This document shows, in pieces, positions 42,566-57,782 of a stretch of DNA of 64,000 nt. The notes below the pieces were generated by a model that saw nothing but the letters and a program-made list of their open reading frames with translations, did no database searches and had not been told where the DNA came from. The position numbers and the translations under genes were made by a program. The stretch comes from Pseudomonadota bacterium (GTDB taxonomy: Bacteria > Chloroflexota > UBA5177 > JAJPKF01). The stretch lies in NCBI GenBank assembly GCA_021323865.1, contig JAJPKF010000019.1, forward strand, positions 256,747 to 320,746, written 5' to 3'. The first letter of the stretch is position 1. Every line of letters begins with the position of its first letter.

Positions 42566-43246
42566 TCATTGGGCAGCCGGATCAAGCAGCCCTGCCCGCA
42601 GCGCATAGCGAACCAGCTCGGATCGGTGCTGGAGGCCCAGCTTCTGCATGACCCGCTGTCGGTAGGTCTCGACGGTTTTGGGGCTCAGAAAGATCTGCTT
42701 ACCAATCTCCAAGGCCGAGTAGCCCTCGGCCGTGAGTCGGGCAACTTCGCGTTCACGGTCACTGAGAGTCTCCCGGATGTCCGTTTCGCGGCCCGCCTTG
42801 GCTCGTTCGAGATAGCCCCTGAGCAGCATCTTGGCCGCCAGCGGCTCGAGGAACACATCTCCTCGAGCAACGGTGCGTATGGCGTCGAGTAGGTCCGTGT
42901 GGGCGGACGATTTATTGACATAACCAGACCCGCCCACCTCCAGGACCGGTAAGAGATAGCGCTCCTCGGCGTGCACTGTCAGAATCAGGACCCGGGTCTC
43001 CTGGTTGAGTTGCGCGATCTCAGCGGTTGCCTCGAGGCCTCCTCCGGGCATCGAGATATCCATGACCACGACGTCGGGATGCAGCTCTCGCGTGAGCCGC
43101 ACCGCCTCGTCACGGTTCCCCGCTTCCGCGATGATCCGCAAATCATGCTGAGCGGCGAGCAGAGACTTGAGACCGGCCCGGACGACGGGATGGTCGTCGG
43201 CAATGAGAATCCGGATGGTGGTTGAAGGGCTGAGTACCGAGGTCAT
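42566..43246 (-). CDS. NarL/LuxR-family response regulator
   Basis: RILIADDHPVVRAGLKSLL, DVVVMDISMPG, LSDREREVARLTAEGYSALEIGKQIFLSPKTVETYRQRVMQKLGLQHRSELVRYAL. Confidence 0.93.
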   Translation of the reverse strand: MTSVLSPSTTIRILIADDHPVVRAGLKSLLAAQHDLRIIAEAGNRDEAVRLTRELHPDVVVMDISMPGGGLEATAEIAQLNQETRVLILTVHAEERYLLPVLEVGGSGYVNKSSAHTDLLDAIRTVARGDVFLEPLAAKMLLRGYLERAKAGRETDIRETLSDREREVARLTAEGYSALEIGKQIFLSPKTVETYRQRVMQKLGLQHRSELVRYALRAGLLDPAAQ

Positions 43247-48396: not shown

Positions 48397-50607
48397 TTAG
48401 GCTGAAAGGATCTCCAGCTCTTGCGACTGTGACGCTCGTTCGTCCAGTTGGGCGAGCCGTTGTGTCAGCGATGTGAACCGGCCGGCAAGTCGGTTCGAGC
48501 GGACGGCCATTCCCAGCGACTTCTCGTCATGGACAATGACGCACAGCTGCTTGGCTCGAGTGAGCGCGGTGTACAACAGGTTCCGCTGCAGCAGTGGGTA
48601 ATGCCCCGACACCATGGGCAGCACGACACAGGGAAACTCGCTCCCCTGCGCCTTGTGCACGGAAACGGCATAGGCAAGCGTCAGATCGCCGAGCTCCGTG
48701 TCGTCGTAGTCGACGCCCCGCTCGTCTCCCGGGCTGCCAAAGCGAACCGTGAGGCGCCCGCTCTCCCGATCGGTTGCGGTCACGAAGCCGACGTCGCCGT
48801 TGAAGACGTCCTTGTCGTAATTGTTCCGAACCTGCATGACCTTGTCACCCGGCCGGAACCGGCCAAACGCCAGCTCGATATTGCGCTCATGCGCCGGGTT
48901 CAGCAGCTCCTGCAGCTCGTGGTTGAGCACCGACACGCCTGCAGGCCCGCGATGGGTGGGGCTGAGAACCTGCACATCACGGGTCGGATCCAAGCCAAAG
49001 CGTGCCGGTATCCGTTCCTGTACCAGCCGTAGCACCACCTCCCTGGCTCGATCCGCCGACTCCACCTTGACCAGAAAGAGATCCCGACCCTCGTCGGGAG
49101 CCGGCACCTGACCGCGCCGGATTCGGTGAGCCGCGACGGTGATGGCGCTATCTCGTGCCTGACGGTACAGCTCCTCCAGAATGGTGGCCGGTACGCCCTC
49201 GGCAGCCAGCAGGTCGCTGAGGATGTTGCCCGGACCAATCGAGGGAAGCTGGTCGGCGTCGCCCACCAGAAGCAGGTGCGCGTCGGATCGGACGGCCTTG
49301 AGCAAGTGATTGGCGAGCAGGATGTCGAGCATCGAAACCTCGTCGACGATGACGAAGTCGGCCGGCAGCTGGTGGTCGGCGTTGTACGCAAACTCGTTTC
49401 CGGAGGGCTGGTAGCCGAGGAGGCGATGTATGGTGGAGGCCGTGCGGTTGGTGGCCGAGGCGATGCGCTTGGCGGCCAGCCCGGTGGGCGCGCACAAAGC
49501 GTATGAGATTCCGGAGGCTTCCAGCGCTCCGATGAGGGCATGGAGACAGGTGGTCTTGCCGGTGCCCGGGCCGCCGGTGATGATGGAGACTTTGGCACGA
49601 AGCGCCGTCGCCACCGCGTTCTGTTGTTCTTCCGAAAGGGTCATTCCCAAGTGGGCGATGATCCGAGTCAATGCGTCCTCGACGGGTGGGCCCTGGTGAT
49701 CCAGGAGAAACGAGGGGCTTCGCAGTAGACGCGACAGACCCTTGGCCAGCCCCCGTTCGGCGTTGAGCAACGGAGTCAAGTAGACGCGGTCGTCCTCGAC
49801 CATCACCTGTGCCTGCCGGGCCGCCTCCAATAGACCAGGTTCCAGATGATCGGGCGAAACCTCGAGCAGCGCTGCGGTCTTGGTCAGAAGCTCGGGTTTG
49901 GGGAGGAACACGTGGCCCTCGCGGGCGGCCTCCTCAAGGACGTGCATCAGGCCCGAGACGAAGCGTGAGGTCGATACCTTGGGAAGTCCCAGCTTGACCG
50001 CCATGGCGTCGGCAGTCTTGAAGCCGATGCCGCTGACGTCCCGGGCAAGTCGGTAGGGATCGCGCTGGATGATGGAGACGCACTCTTCCCCGTACTGATC
50101 TCGAATCCGACCGGCGAGGTGAGCCGGCAGATCGTGACCGCGGAGAAAGATGAGCAGCTCCCGGATTTGCCGATGAGATCGCCATCCCTCGGCAATGAGC
50201 TCGGCGCGGCGGCCAATCCGAGCCTCCCGCAGCCGCTCGGGATGGTGCTCGATGATCTCAATGGTTTGCTCTCCGAAACGTTCCACAACTGCCCGCGCGG
50301 TTCCGGGCCCAATGCCCTTGATGATTCCTGATCCCAGAAATCGCTCCAACCCTTGAAGGGTCGTCGGCAGCCGCTGCTCGGTCCACTCGACCCGGAAGTG
50401 CGGCCCGTGTCTGGCATGGCGCTCCCACTCGCCGCCCACACGCAGCGGCTCGCCGGGGTTGATACCGCCGAGATTCCCGACCAGCGTGGTCACGTCGTCG
50501 TAGGTTCTCTGTCCAGCGACATCCTCCAGGCGAAACCGAGCCACCACGAACCGCTCGTCGTCGCTGCGAAACACGATGCGCTCGACGGTCCCGGTGAGGG
50601 TCGTCAC
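48397..50607 (-). CDS. RecD2-like ATP-dependent helicase
   Basis: ITGGPGTGKTTCLHALIGAL, VIVDEVSMLDILLANHLLKAV, DLTLAYAVSVHKAQGSEFPCVVLPM, N-terminal HhH region. Confidence 0.92.
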   Translation of the reverse strand: MTTLTGTVERIVFRSDDERFVVARFRLEDVAGQRTYDDVTTLVGNLGGINPGEPLRVGGEWERHARHGPHFRVEWTEQRLPTTLQGLERFLGSGIIKGIGPGTARAVVERFGEQTIEIIEHHPERLREARIGRRAELIAEGWRSHRQIRELLIFLRGHDLPAHLAGRIRDQYGEECVSIIQRDPYRLARDVSGIGFKTADAMAVKLGLPKVSTSRFVSGLMHVLEEAAREGHVFLPKPELLTKTAALLEVSPDHLEPGLLEAARQAQVMVEDDRVYLTPLLNAERGLAKGLSRLLRSPSFLLDHQGPPVEDALTRIIAHLGMTLSEEQQNAVATALRAKVSIITGGPGTGKTTCLHALIGALEASGISYALCAPTGLAAKRIASATNRTASTIHRLLGYQPSGNEFAYNADHQLPADFVIVDEVSMLDILLANHLLKAVRSDAHLLLVGDADQLPSIGPGNILSDLLAAEGVPATILEELYRQARDSAITVAAHRIRRGQVPAPDEGRDLFLVKVESADRAREVVLRLVQERIPARFGLDPTRDVQVLSPTHRGPAGVSVLNHELQELLNPAHERNIELAFGRFRPGDKVMQVRNNYDKDVFNGDVGFVTATDRESGRLTVRFGSPGDERGVDYDDTELGDLTLAYAVSVHKAQGSEFPCVVLPMVSGHYPLLQRNLLYTALTRAKQLCVIVHDEKSLGMAVRSNRLAGRFTSLTQRLAQLDERASQSQELEILSA

Positions 50608-51641
50608 TAGGGGAAGAGACGAGGTTGGGCGGCTGGCTCGCTATCCGAAGTGTTCGCGGCCCCGAGCTTCCGGCCTCCTGGCGTCCGGCTGACCAACCCC
50701 AGCTTCAGCAGGTAGGGCTCGATCACGTCCACCAGGGTGTCCTTCTCCTCGTTGAGCGTGGCCGCCAACGCGTCGATACCCACCGGGCCGCCGTTATAGA
50801 AGTCGCGAATGGTCTGGAGGTAGCGCCGGTCCATGTCGTTGAGCCCTGAGGCATCCACACCCTCACGAGTGAGGGCTTGCTGCGCGATGGGGAGCGTGAT
50901 GTGTCCGTCGCCGAGCACCTGGGCGTGGTCGCGGACGCGACGAAGCAGGCGGTTGGCGATACGCGGAGTTCCTCGGGAGCGCCGCGCGATTTCGGATGCG
51001 GCGTCGGGCTCGATCGGTGTTTCCAGTAGGGCCGCAGACCGCTCAACCACCGTCGCGAGCTCGTCGGGTGAGTAGAAGTCCAGGTGAAAGTGAAAGCCGA
51101 ACCGATCGCGAAGCGGCGCCGTGAGCATGCCGGAGCGCGTGGTGGCGCCCACCAGCGTGAATCGCTTGAGAGGAAACTTGATGGTTCGGGCATGGGTGCC
51201 CTTGTCGAGCACGAAGTCGACGCTGAAGTCCTCCATGGCGGAGTAGAGGAACTCCTCCACCGTGCGCGGCAGGCGGTGTATCTCATCCACGAACAGCACG
51301 CTGCCGGCGTCGAGGTTGGTGAGGATGCCCATGAGGTCACTCTGACGCTCCAGAGCCGGCCCCGAGCTGCTGATGAGAGTCGCCTCCATCTCATGGGCGA
51401 TCACGTGGGCCAGCGTCGTCTTCCCCAGTCCAGGAGGGCCGTAGAGGAGGACGTGCTCCAGCGGCTCCTCCCGTCGTCGGGCGGCCTCGATGGCGATGCC
51501 CAGGTTCTCAACCACGGCGCGCTGGCCGGCGCGGCCGTACTCCTCCAGAGTTCTCGGACGGAGATTGATGGCGGCGCGATCGAGCTGCTCGTCATCCGGG
51601 TCTCTGGTCGCCTCGGCCTGGAGGGTTGCCTTCCTAGCCAC
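50607..51641 (-). CDS. ruvB: Holliday junction branch migration ATPase RuvB
   Basis: LRPRTLEEYGRAGQRAVVENLGIAIEAAR...HVLLYGPPGLGKTTLAHVIAHEM. Confidence 0.96.
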   Translation of the reverse strand: MARKATLQAEATRDPDDEQLDRAAINLRPRTLEEYGRAGQRAVVENLGIAIEAARRREEPLEHVLLYGPPGLGKTTLAHVIAHEMEATLISSSGPALERQSDLMGILTNLDAGSVLFVDEIHRLPRTVEEFLYSAMEDFSVDFVLDKGTHARTIKFPLKRFTLVGATTRSGMLTAPLRDRFGFHFHLDFYSPDELATVVERSAALLETPIEPDAASEIARRSRGTPRIANRLLRRVRDHAQVLGDGHITLPIAQQALTREGVDASGLNDMDRRYLQTIRDFYNGGPVGIDALAATLNEEKDTLVDVIEPYLLKLGLVSRTPGGRKLGAANTSDSEPAAQPRLFP

Positions 51642-51689: not shown

Positions 51690-52325
51690 TCATACGAGAG
51701 CCGTCTCCCGTCGGTACACTTCGCGGATCAGCTCCTCCGGCGTTTGGATGTCCGGCCGGTGTTCAAGCGCCGCGTCGATCTTGTGCTGCGCCTCGAGGCG
51801 ACGGTGCCCCAGGCTAAGGAGTATCTCCAGGGTGTCGGTCTTCAGATCCATCGCCTCCGGCAGCTCGTGGGTTGGAGCGATGCGGTCATATCCCTCATCC
51901 TGCAGGAGGGCCTCCTCCGCGCATTTGCCCCGCAGCGTGGCGACCATTTTCCGGGCGGTGCGCTCCCCGATCCCCGGGAGCCGGCGCAGCAGAACGACGT
52001 TGTCGGTCTCGATGGCGTTGGCGATGGTCGAAACAGAGAGCGCCAGCGCTCGGGCCGCCTTGATGGGTCCGACATCTTCGACCTGGATGATCTTTTCAAA
52101 GAACAGCTTTTCATGAAAGTTGTTGAACCCGAACAGGATCGGCCGGATCTGGCGCTCGCTGGCGTGATAGTAGATCTCCAGCTCCACCGTCTCGCCCTCC
52201 CGGCGAGCGTCATAGGTGCGCCGCACGAACTGGGGAAGAAACACCTCGTACCCGACGCCGCCGGTTTCCACCACCACGCGGTCCTCGTGTTTGCGGCTGA
52301 GCACGCCGGTGAGATGGGCGATCAC
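51690..52325 (-). CDS. ruvA: Holliday junction branch migration protein RuvA
   Basis: MIAHLTGVLSRKHEDRVVVETGGVGYEVFLP...HhH LRRLPGIGERTARKMVATL. Confidence 0.92.
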   Translation of the reverse strand: MIAHLTGVLSRKHEDRVVVETGGVGYEVFLPQFVRRTYDARREGETVELEIYYHASERQIRPILFGFNNFHEKLFFEKIIQVEDVGPIKAARALALSVSTIANAIETDNVVLLRRLPGIGERTARKMVATLRGKCAEEALLQDEGYDRIAPTHELPEAMDLKTDTLEILLSLGHRRLEAQHKIDAALEHRPDIQTPEELIREVYRRETALV

Positions 52326-52450: not shown

Positions 52451-53254
52451 TCAGGCTGCCTGGACCGGACGGCACACCATGCAGGGCCGGTAGCCCGAGC
52501 CGAGCGCCGAGCTGGCGTTCGGAAACCCAACCAGATGCTTTTCGGTGACCCTCCGGGCGTGCGAGCAGGTCGGGAAGCAGAAGATGTGCGTGGTGTCGCT
52601 GCCCACGTAGCGAGCCCCCCTCCGGGCAAGCCGTTCCAACTGATCAGGCTGCGCCCCTTCGCGAGTGAGAATCTGCCGCTTCACTTCCGGGCCGCCCATG
52701 CCGTAGTTGCCGATCACCCCGTCGTTGCGGACCACCCGATGGCAGGGAATGACCAGTGGGATCGGATTGCCGGCGAGCGCGGACCCGACCGCCCGGTCCG
52801 CTCGGGGATGCCCAATCTCTCGGGCGATCCAGCTGTAGGGGCGCACCTGCCCGTAGGGGATCTCCAGCGTCTTGAGGAGCACCTTTCGCTGAAAGTCCGT
52901 GGACGTGCTCAGGTCGACACGCGGCGGTCGATTGGAGCCCGACAGCCGCCGCTGAATCTGATCGACCAGCCGGGCCGGCGGCGAGTCTGTGGGAACCACC
53001 ATGCGCCCGAATCGCTCCTGGAATCGCGCCTCGAATCGGGTAGCGTCCCCGGCCCGTTCGACCATCCGGATCCCTGTCGAGCCGAAGGCGACAAAGATGT
53101 CACCCACGGGACTGGCCGTGCGGAAGTATTGGTCGGCGAGGCCGGTCTCGGCCAGGACGTGGCGCCGGATGTTTTCGGGAGCGTCCTCGTTCCCCAGGCG
53201 GCGAATCTGGGCAATGACGGCGTCGTCCGTCAACGAGCTCACGTGATGATTCAT
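52451..53254 (-). CDS. Methylated-DNA--protein-cysteine methyltransferase fused to a C-terminal Ada-type Cys4 zinc-binding domain
   Basis: Ogt active site IPCHRVVRNDGVIGNYGMGGPEVKRQIL; C-terminal RYVGSDTTHIFCFPTCSHARRVTEKHLVGFPNASSALGSGYRPCMVC with C-x3-C...C-x2-C. Confidence 0.9.
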   Translation of the reverse strand: MNHHVSSLTDDAVIAQIRRLGNEDAPENIRRHVLAETGLADQYFRTASPVGDIFVAFGSTGIRMVERAGDATRFEARFQERFGRMVVPTDSPPARLVDQIQRRLSGSNRPPRVDLSTSTDFQRKVLLKTLEIPYGQVRPYSWIAREIGHPRADRAVGSALAGNPIPLVIPCHRVVRNDGVIGNYGMGGPEVKRQILTREGAQPDQLERLARRGARYVGSDTTHIFCFPTCSHARRVTEKHLVGFPNASSALGSGYRPCMVCRPVQAA

Positions 53255-53257
53255 ACC

Positions 53258-53884
53258 TTAATCTCCAGGTCTGATGTGTTGTGCTTGGCGCTGGACATTG
53301 CCCGCCGGCTGCAGGTCCCAGGCCTCCGACGAGGCTTCCAATCGCTCGCGCAGCTGCGCCAGCCCACGATGCACCTGCGCCTTGAGCGTCCCCTCCGGCC
53401 GGCCAAGTACGGCGGACATCTCCCCATACGAAAGATCCGATAGGTAGCGAAGTAGCACGGCTTCGCGATGATGCACCGGAAGGTCCATGATCAGCGCTCG
53501 CATGGCCACCGACTGCTCCAGGTGTTCGTATCCAGACTCGATGTCGTCGGGCCCGGCCAGCGAATCGTGGCCGTCATGCAGCGGCTCCGTGCGAGGGTCG
53601 TGGCGCCGGACCCGGTTGCGAATGAGGTTGCGAAGGATGGCGTAGAGCCACGCCTGGAGGGCCATGTCACGGATCCGATCCGCGGAGTACGTCTTGAGCG
53701 CCCGATAGGCACGGATCAGCGCATCCTGGGTCAACTCCTCCGCCTCCTCCCTCGAACCGGTCATGCGCAGCGCAAAGACGTAGAGCGGCTGCTGGAAGGT
53801 GCGTACGACCTGATCAAAGTGGCTGTTCAGATCGGCGGCCAGCTCCGCCGCGAGGAGTTGGTGTGATGTTGCTGTTGTGTTCAT
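53258..53884 (-). CDS. ECF-type sigma factor (sigma-70 family)
   Basis: FQQPLYVFALRMTGSREEAEELTQDALIRAYRAL...LRYLSDLSYGEMSAVLGRPEGTLKAQVHRGLAQLRERL. Confidence 0.93.
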   Translation of the reverse strand: MNTTATSHQLLAAELAADLNSHFDQVVRTFQQPLYVFALRMTGSREEAEELTQDALIRAYRALKTYSADRIRDMALQAWLYAILRNLIRNRVRRHDPRTEPLHDGHDSLAGPDDIESGYEHLEQSVAMRALIMDLPVHHREAVLLRYLSDLSYGEMSAVLGRPEGTLKAQVHRGLAQLRERLEASSEAWDLQPAGNVQRQAQHIRPGD

Positions 53885-53890
53885 GCCTTC

Positions 53891-53934
53891 CTCAGGTACA
53901 ACACCACTTGCGGTCCGACCGTTGCATACCTGAG
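53891..53934. promoter_or_regulatory. Nested inverted repeats in divergent promoter region
   Basis: CTCAGGTA (53891-53898)...TACCTGAG (53927-53934) enclosing CGGTC-c-GACCG (53911-53921). Confidence 0.5.
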
Positions 53935-54967: not shown

Positions 54968-55004
54968 GCCAGATCAAGGACCGCACAGGAGCGCCACAAC
55001 CGCA

Positions 55005-55095
55005 TACACGCTAGGGGAGCCTTTCGGCTGAGAGACGCGACACTCGCGTCGACCCTTCGAACCTGACCTCGGGTAATGCCAGCGTAGGGAAGCGA
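55005..55095 (+). ncRNA. TPP riboswitch (THI element)
   Basis: ACGCTAGGGGAGCC...GGCTGAGAGA...GACCCTTCGAACCTGA...GGGTAATGCCAGCGTAGGGAA; ACGCT/AGCGT P1. Confidence 0.95.
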
Positions 55096-55107
55096 CTGAT
55101 CCATTCG

Positions 55108-56781: not shown

Positions 56782-57782
56782 TCCGGTCCAGACCGATTCG
56801 CATCTTGACGGCGGTCTCGGCGGCTCTGATCCTGTCCGCGTGCGGCGCCTCCCGTCCCCAGGCATCCAGGCCGGCCCTGCAGCCGCTGACACTGTGGCTC
56901 GACTACACCCCCTGGGGCGCCCACGTCCCCCTCTACGTCGCTCAGTCCCGAGGCTATTTCCGGCGGCAGGGACTGCAGGTGGCCATTCGCGTGCCGGCCA
57001 ACCTCAGTGATCCGCTCAAGCTGGTCGCCCATGATCCGCATGCCCTCGGCATCGGCTACATGAGCGACGTGGTCACGGCCGAAAGCCAGGGTCTTCCGGT
57101 CGAGTCTGTGGCTGCCCTCGTCCAGCACCACTTGAACTGCATCATGACCCTCCGCTCCTCGGGCATCACCTCACCCCGGCAGCTGGCCGGCAAGAGCATC
57201 GGAGCGGCGGAAACACCGGCCGACAACGTCATCCTCAATACGGTCTTCAAACACGCGCACGTCCTCGGAAAGGTGCGCCGCGTCAACGTGAGCTTCGACT
57301 ACGTTCCGGCCCTCCTCCATCACACGGTCGATGCCATCGAGGGCGGCTATCAGGTGTGGGAGCGAGTCCAGATCGAGCAGCAGGGGCAACACGTGAACGT
57401 CATCCAGCTGCAGAAATGGGGCGTTCCCGACGAATATGAGCTGGTGCTGCTGGCCAACCGGACTGCCATCTCTCATGACCCCTCGGAGCTGCGCCGGTTC
57501 ATGACCGCTCTCCGGATGGGAGTGCGATTCGCAGTCGGCCACCCTCGGCGGGCTGTCCGGATCTTCGTCCACGACAATCCGGGCTATGCCGGTACCCGGA
57601 AGCAGGCACTGGTCTCGCGGAGCTGGCATCTGCTCATCCCCTTCGTGCAGCCTCCCGGAACACCGTTCGGCCGGCAGTCCGCGGCGCGTTGGGCGGCCCT
57701 CGGGGGCTGGATGTATCGGAACCACTTGGTCTCGAAGCGGGTTCCCGTGAGGGCACTGTTCACCGGTCGGTTCGATACTTGA
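56778..57782 (+). CDS. ABC transporter substrate-binding lipoprotein, NMT1/THI5-like (ThiY-like)
   Basis: ATGA overlap; lipobox ILSACG; LTLWLDYTPWGAHVPLYVAQSRGYFRRQGLQV. Confidence 0.88.
   Translation: MIRSRPIRILTAVSAALILSACGASRPQASRPALQPLTLWLDYTPWGAHVPLYVAQSRGYFRRQGLQVAIRVPANLSDPLKLVAHDPHALGIGYMSDVVTAESQGLPVESVAALVQHHLNCIMTLRSSGITSPRQLAGKSIGAAETPADNVILNTVFKHAHVLGKVRRVNVSFDYVPALLHHTVDAIEGGYQVWERVQIEQQGQHVNVIQLQKWGVPDEYELVLLANRTAISHDPSELRRFMTALRMGVRFAVGHPRRAVRIFVHDNPGYAGTRKQALVSRSWHLLIPFVQPPGTPFGRQSAARWAALGGWMYRNHLVSKRVPVRALFTGRFDT

Follow-up and report, generated by a model that had tools for sequence, protein, structure and literature searches.

An Ogt-Ada alkyltransferase as the putative anti-sigma factor of an adjacent ECF sigma factor

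Comparison of a two-gene locus with its relatives suggests that a suicide DNA-repair enzyme of the Ogt family, here extended by an Ada domain, is on balance the anti-sigma factor of the ECF sigma factor encoded beside it, and that its alkylation during repair would free the sigma factor. As the Ogt proteins of related lineages carry a sigma-blocking domain, it is probably the repair enzyme that keeps the sigma factor inactive, up to the point where repair of alkylated DNA has consumed it. The broader proposal, that the used-up enzyme is the signal of a sigma-based adaptive response replacing the AraC-type Ada in several phyla, we regard as evenly poised. The preliminary description of this DNA missed the likeness of the partner to an anti-sigma factor.

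The window, meaning the whole 64,000-nucleotide stretch that was analyzed, contains the following features of the locus, all on the minus strand.

53900-53926, minus strand: TGCAAC-N16-GTGTT, a predicted sigma-dependent autoregulatory promoter, 15 nt upstream of the sigma ATG
53258-53884, minus strand: ECF sigma factor, 208 aa (Pfam Sigma70_r2 1.3e-15, Sigma70_r4_2 5.2e-12)
52451-53254, minus strand: Ogt-Ada partner, 267 aa, with an N-terminal segment, an Ogt domain and a C-terminal Ada Cys4 domain
53120-53254, minus strand: N-terminal segment of the partner, aa 1-45, anti-sigma-like by alignment with relatives and by a presence that follows sigma adjacency
52655-52897, minus strand: Ogt DNA-binding/catalytic domain, aa 120-200 (Pfam DNA_binding_1 1.6e-28)
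52742-52744, minus strand: nucleophile Cys171 of the Ogt domain, in the PCHRV motif
52466-52618, minus strand: Ada metal-binding domain, aa 213-263 (Ada_Zn_binding 5.6e-10)
51690-52325, minus strand: ruvA, ~125 bp downstream of the Ogt-Ada gene (TIGR00084 9.1e-40)
50607-51641, minus strand: ruvB (NF000868 4.1e-135)
48397-50607, minus strand: recD2 helicase (TIGR01448 1.1e-232)

The preliminary description had located the sigma gene and its adjoining reading frame correctly. The sigma factor also matches NCBIfam sigma70-ECF (TIGR02937, 1.6e-25) and consists of regions 2 and 4 only, with no region 1 or 3 domain, as befits an ECF (group IV sigma70) factor. Its TAA stop is followed by GGT (53257-53255) and then by the partner ATG at 53254, such that 3 nt separate two genes lying in one frame. 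Downstream of the two genes, ruvA is a possible read-through member of the transcript. The series ruvA-ruvB-recD2 was considered as a conserved part of the unit and rejected: no match to any of the three lies near any other pair tested.

Behind its N-terminal segment, the partner has the order first read from the letters, with Ogt ahead of Ada, and this order is borne out by the Pfam domain positions. The Ogt/MGMT assignment draws on DNA_binding_1 together with the PCHR motif and on a TIGR00589 match (3.6e-26); the core matches alkyltransferase structures, among them that of the C-terminal Ada alkyltransferase (1sfe), and PCHRV is unchanged in 31 aligned relatives. The Ada_Zn_binding match scores 39.5 bits against a cut-off of 23, and the C-terminal domain matches structures of E. 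coli N-Ada (1adn, E 9.8e-7; also 1u8b and 1zgw). Its C-x3-C...C-x2-C pattern is formed by C226, C230, C258 and C261, which are conserved in the alignment of relatives, and methyl transfer at this site is predicted. Cys226 corresponds to Cys38, the methyl acceptor of E. coli Ada. Cysteine occurs only five times in the protein, at C171 and these four positions, and all five are predicted to be functional. As had been claimed, Pfam and NCBIfam scans give no AraC helix-turn-helix in this protein, setting it apart from E. coli-type Ada regulators. It is also the sole Ada_Zn_binding match in the host genome (92% complete), and therefore no classical AraC-type Ada was found there; a second Ogt of that genome, a plain one, is an ordinary repair enzyme.

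Relatives were collected by similarity and from 301 genomes drawn evenly across the window's phylum. In that draw, a sigma gene lies directly upstream of 23 of 28 Ogt-Ada genes, which upholds the earlier suggestion that the pairing is conserved outside the host genome; the five genes lacking a sigma neighbor also lack the N-terminal segment (5/5). Over all loci, a sigma gene adjoins 60 of 66 Ogt-Ada genes, and in relatives the sigma stop and the partner start usually overlap by 4-20 nt. Sigma-Ogt pairs are also found in Acidobacteriota, Eremiobacterota and Actinomycetota; the last have a sigma gene at 27 of their best 30 loci, as well as Ogt-Ada proteins with FCxxTC as the first motif. Chance is excluded, because dozens of independent genomes show the same pairing and architecture. 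Fourteen sigma-Ogt pairs carry no Ada domain, and the constant core is therefore the N-terminal segment plus Ogt, with Ada optional. The initial picture of the Ogt-Ada fusion as the sigma partner stands for the conserved pairing and needs correcting as to the Ada domain. At two loci, the sigma gene is followed by two Ogt-Ada genes in tandem; at 14 Dormibacterota loci, the pair is divergent from another ECF sigma gene; and at two further loci, the Ogt-Ada frame appears broken near its start, by a frameshift or an assembly error.

The sigma/Ogt-Ada partnership had been put forward as an alternative response system. The pairing is real, but pairing of a sigma factor with Ogt had already been catalogued as ECF122 (PMC8999054). 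In its treatment of this group, the 2022 review gives 6-O-methylguanine methyltransferases as neighbors, no anti-sigma factor and an uncharacterized mechanism, and names an actinobacterial representative from Cellulomonas; the group itself belongs to the 2021 ECF classification (Casas-Pastor et al. 2021, cited in PMC8999054). From this entry it follows that the sigma-Ogt pairing as such is known, and the window pair has the same conserved neighbor, Ogt/MGMT, beside an ECF sigma factor. In contrast to ECF122 as described there, the window partner also has an Ada domain, and some of its relatives bear zinc anti-sigma domains; the common actinobacterial sigma-Ogt pairs, taken as a proxy for the group, fall into a clade of their own (support 0.998). 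When the literature was searched for a methylguanine transferase acting as an anti-sigma factor, nothing turned up beyond PMC8999054, and in the literature searched no fused anti-sigma domain, Ada variant or conserved promoter was found. What appears to be new is a class-I zinc anti-sigma domain on the Ogt partners of sister lineages, the Ada variant and a conserved promoter-like motif.

Support for an anti-sigma role comes from these sister lineages. The Ogt encoded after the sigma gene in Eremiobacterota and in one alphaproteobacterial bin opens with MRCCDVEALWDE...HVLAHLRRCRTCQ...LPIVEPPNSLVPRIL, an Hx3Cx2C domain. Among PDB proteins, the profile of the Eremiobacterota domain matches RsiW alone, an anti-sigma factor (E 0.0039), in an alignment that extends through helix 4. 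In Thermoanaerobaculia, the partner is a single reading frame of zf-HC2, Ogt and Ada_Zn_binding. Within the searched set, zf-HC2 is matched in 4 of 14 members, at best with 9.3e-7. An AlphaFold model of the relatives' domain has four helices in class-I order; a Foldseek search with the predicted domain gave no significant match, with the anti-sigma factor RslA second at E 5.7. In a tree of the sigma factors, that of the window groups with those of the lineages whose Ogt carries a zinc anti-sigma domain (SH-like support 0.91-0.96; with Actinomycetota included, support falls to 0.83-0.94 and is near 0 at some nodes). One locus of the window's own phylum, L177, likewise has an Hx3Cx2C domain ahead of Ogt (zf-HC2 0.0052). 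The sigma factor adjacent to it belongs to a different sigma lineage, and the fusion of an anti-sigma domain with Ogt may therefore have arisen more than once.

The window protein itself would carry a remnant of this domain. Residues 17-38 (53141-53206), IRRLGNEDAPENIRRHVLAETG, align in register with the last part of helix 3, the linker and helix 4 of the relatives' anti-sigma domain; the hhalign comparison of the N-terminal segment with that domain gives E 0.0014 and a probability of 18%, which is weak alone. Helices 1-3 and the zinc site are absent, leaving a helix-4-like segment with weak profile support, and a PDB search with the profile of the segment found no anti-sigma factor. In class-I anti-sigma factors, most of the coevolving contacts with region 2 of the sigma factor fall on helix 4 (PMC7406223). 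The place of the window sigma factor in the tree would fit an origin of this segment by reduction of a complete anti-sigma domain.

Its distribution points the same way. Every Ogt-Ada protein with the segment has a sigma neighbor (56/56), whereas of the 10 that lack it, 6 have no such neighbor (Fisher 2e-6), and among Ogt proteins with no recognized Ada domain a sigma gene is present in 19/19 with the segment and 6/30 without; these tests take no account of shared ancestry, and the segment profile was built mostly from sigma-linked proteins. Six Ogt-Ada paralogues have neither sigma nor segment, although their Ada domain is intact. The preliminary description had proposed the first ~45 residues as a segment that touches the sigma factor. 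That idea gains from both comparisons, namely the presence of the segment beside a sigma gene with its absence from sigma-less paralogues, and the full zinc anti-sigma domain at the same position in sister lineages. AlphaFold modeling of a read-through sigma-GG-Ogt chain gave a pTM of 0.45, a pLDDT below 50 for the segment and no confident docking.

Upstream of the sigma gene, the promoter-like motif TGCAAC-N15-17-GTGTT has one match in the 2.96-Mb genome by pattern search, and shuffles of the window give 0.04. Of the 56 regions upstream of sigma genes in relatives, 28 contain the form NGCAAC-N15-17-GKGTT, against 0/56 in both controls, and site recurrence across genomes revealed no second conserved target. 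A wider regulon was considered from recurrent TGCAAC-N-GKGTT sites in Dormibacterota. These lie in a D-tyrosyl-tRNA deacylase-like gene and antisense in an unrelated gene, and were rejected as protein conservation or chance because all are inside coding genes. With the motif unique and the other recurrent sites intragenic, the predicted circuit looks narrow and self-amplifying. By eye, CGAAC-N16-GTGTT recurs upstream of Thermoanaerobaculia sigma genes and GAAAC...CGGTC upstream of those of Eremiobacterota (among 15 loci).

A single genomic match is equally what would be expected of a sigma factor serving one operon as a dedicated activator under other control, be it its own transcription, proteolysis or another signal, with Ogt-Ada as product and not regulator. 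Effector genes are common in sigma operons, and the review's account of ECF122 puts the group among sigma factors that have no anti-sigma factor (PMC8999054). We nevertheless consider this reading rather unlikely, with an appreciable residual chance, as it leaves unexplained both the zinc anti-sigma domains fused to Ogt in several lineages and an N-terminal segment that tracks the sigma factor and not the Ada domain. The conserved Ada cysteines would also suit a methylation-dependent co-activator, whose methylated Ada domain binds the promoter, as that of E. coli Ada does, and recruits the sigma holoenzyme; E. coli Ada does act with sigma at its own promoters (PMC4437013). However, the AraC/B-box half is missing from Ogt-Ada, and many sigma-Ogt pairs are entirely without an Ada domain, making this improbable. 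Least probable of the readings weighed here is an N-terminus that binds the sigma factor under RsrA-like redox or electrophile sensing at cysteines, with repair incidental: thiol stress is often sensed by zinc anti-sigma domains, and zinc motifs are enriched among soluble class-I anti-sigma factors (PMC7406223), but the window N-terminus has neither cysteines nor a zinc motif, all five cysteines belong to alkyl transfer or the Ada site, and the catalytic PCHRV is invariant.

If Ogt-Ada is the anti-sigma factor, the reaction cycle likely involves the following steps. By homology, the unmodified protein would bind its cognate sigma factor via the N-terminal segment and bar it from RNA polymerase. 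As the trigger, Cys171 would accept the alkyl group of O6-alkylguanine or, alternatively, Cys226 in the Ada domain would accept that of a methyl phosphotriester. The alkylated protein would then change shape or be degraded, freeing the sigma factor; alkylation is known to destabilize Ogt-type proteins and to undo the contacts that join their N-terminal and C-terminal domains (PMC10779285). Free sigma factor would transcribe its own operon, presumably from TGCAAC-N16-GTGTT, and the fresh Ogt-Ada would repair further lesions and, once in excess of the damage, take the sigma factor back. Thus, output would be set by how much repair enzyme is still unused, and damage would be read as a loss of free repair capacity.

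Such a switch would differ from known systems in its output domain and in its regulator. Like class-I anti-sigma factors (ASD/ZAS: RsiW, RsrA, ChrR, RslA), Ogt-Ada is encoded directly downstream of, and co-oriented with, its putative cognate ECF sigma factor, its sister proteins have the Hx3Cx2C and helix-4 segment, and the operon has an autoregulatory promoter-like motif. Unlike them, it has a suicide DNA-repair enzyme as output domain, and in the window member the N-terminus is reduced. With E. coli Ada and Ogt it shares the two methyl-accepting modules (O6-alkylguanine and Cys4 phosphotriester) and, by inference, a role in damage sensing, whereas the domain order is reversed relative to Ada, the AraC-type DNA-binding half is absent and an ECF sigma factor holds the regulator position. 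Cada2-type regulators (PMC10957082) likewise combine methylation-dependent control of the alkylation response with a variant Ada architecture; in contrast, Cada2 is a DNA-binding transcription factor, and the term sigma factor appears nowhere in that paper. If correct, the anti-sigma reading would provide a concrete mechanism for the sigma-Ogt pairs that are catalogued but unexplained (ECF122 and relatives), and would define a second design of bacterial adaptive response in which a single protein serves as sensor, repair enzyme and anti-sigma factor, and in which the consumed enzyme itself is the signal. Its stoichiometric, single-use nature could be useful in an alkylation biosensor.

Two further elements lie elsewhere in the window. 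A weak Sigma70_r4_2 match below the cut-off (E 4.1e-4; 42638-42772, minus strand) suggests a second sigma-like gene. A TPP riboswitch (RF00059, 66.9 bits; 55003-55107, plus strand) lies upstream of an ABC transporter operon, with genes named from their translations as ATPase (55148), permease (55924) and binding protein; the operon ends with a thiamine-diphosphokinase-like gene near 57750 and is an ordinary thiamine-uptake operon.
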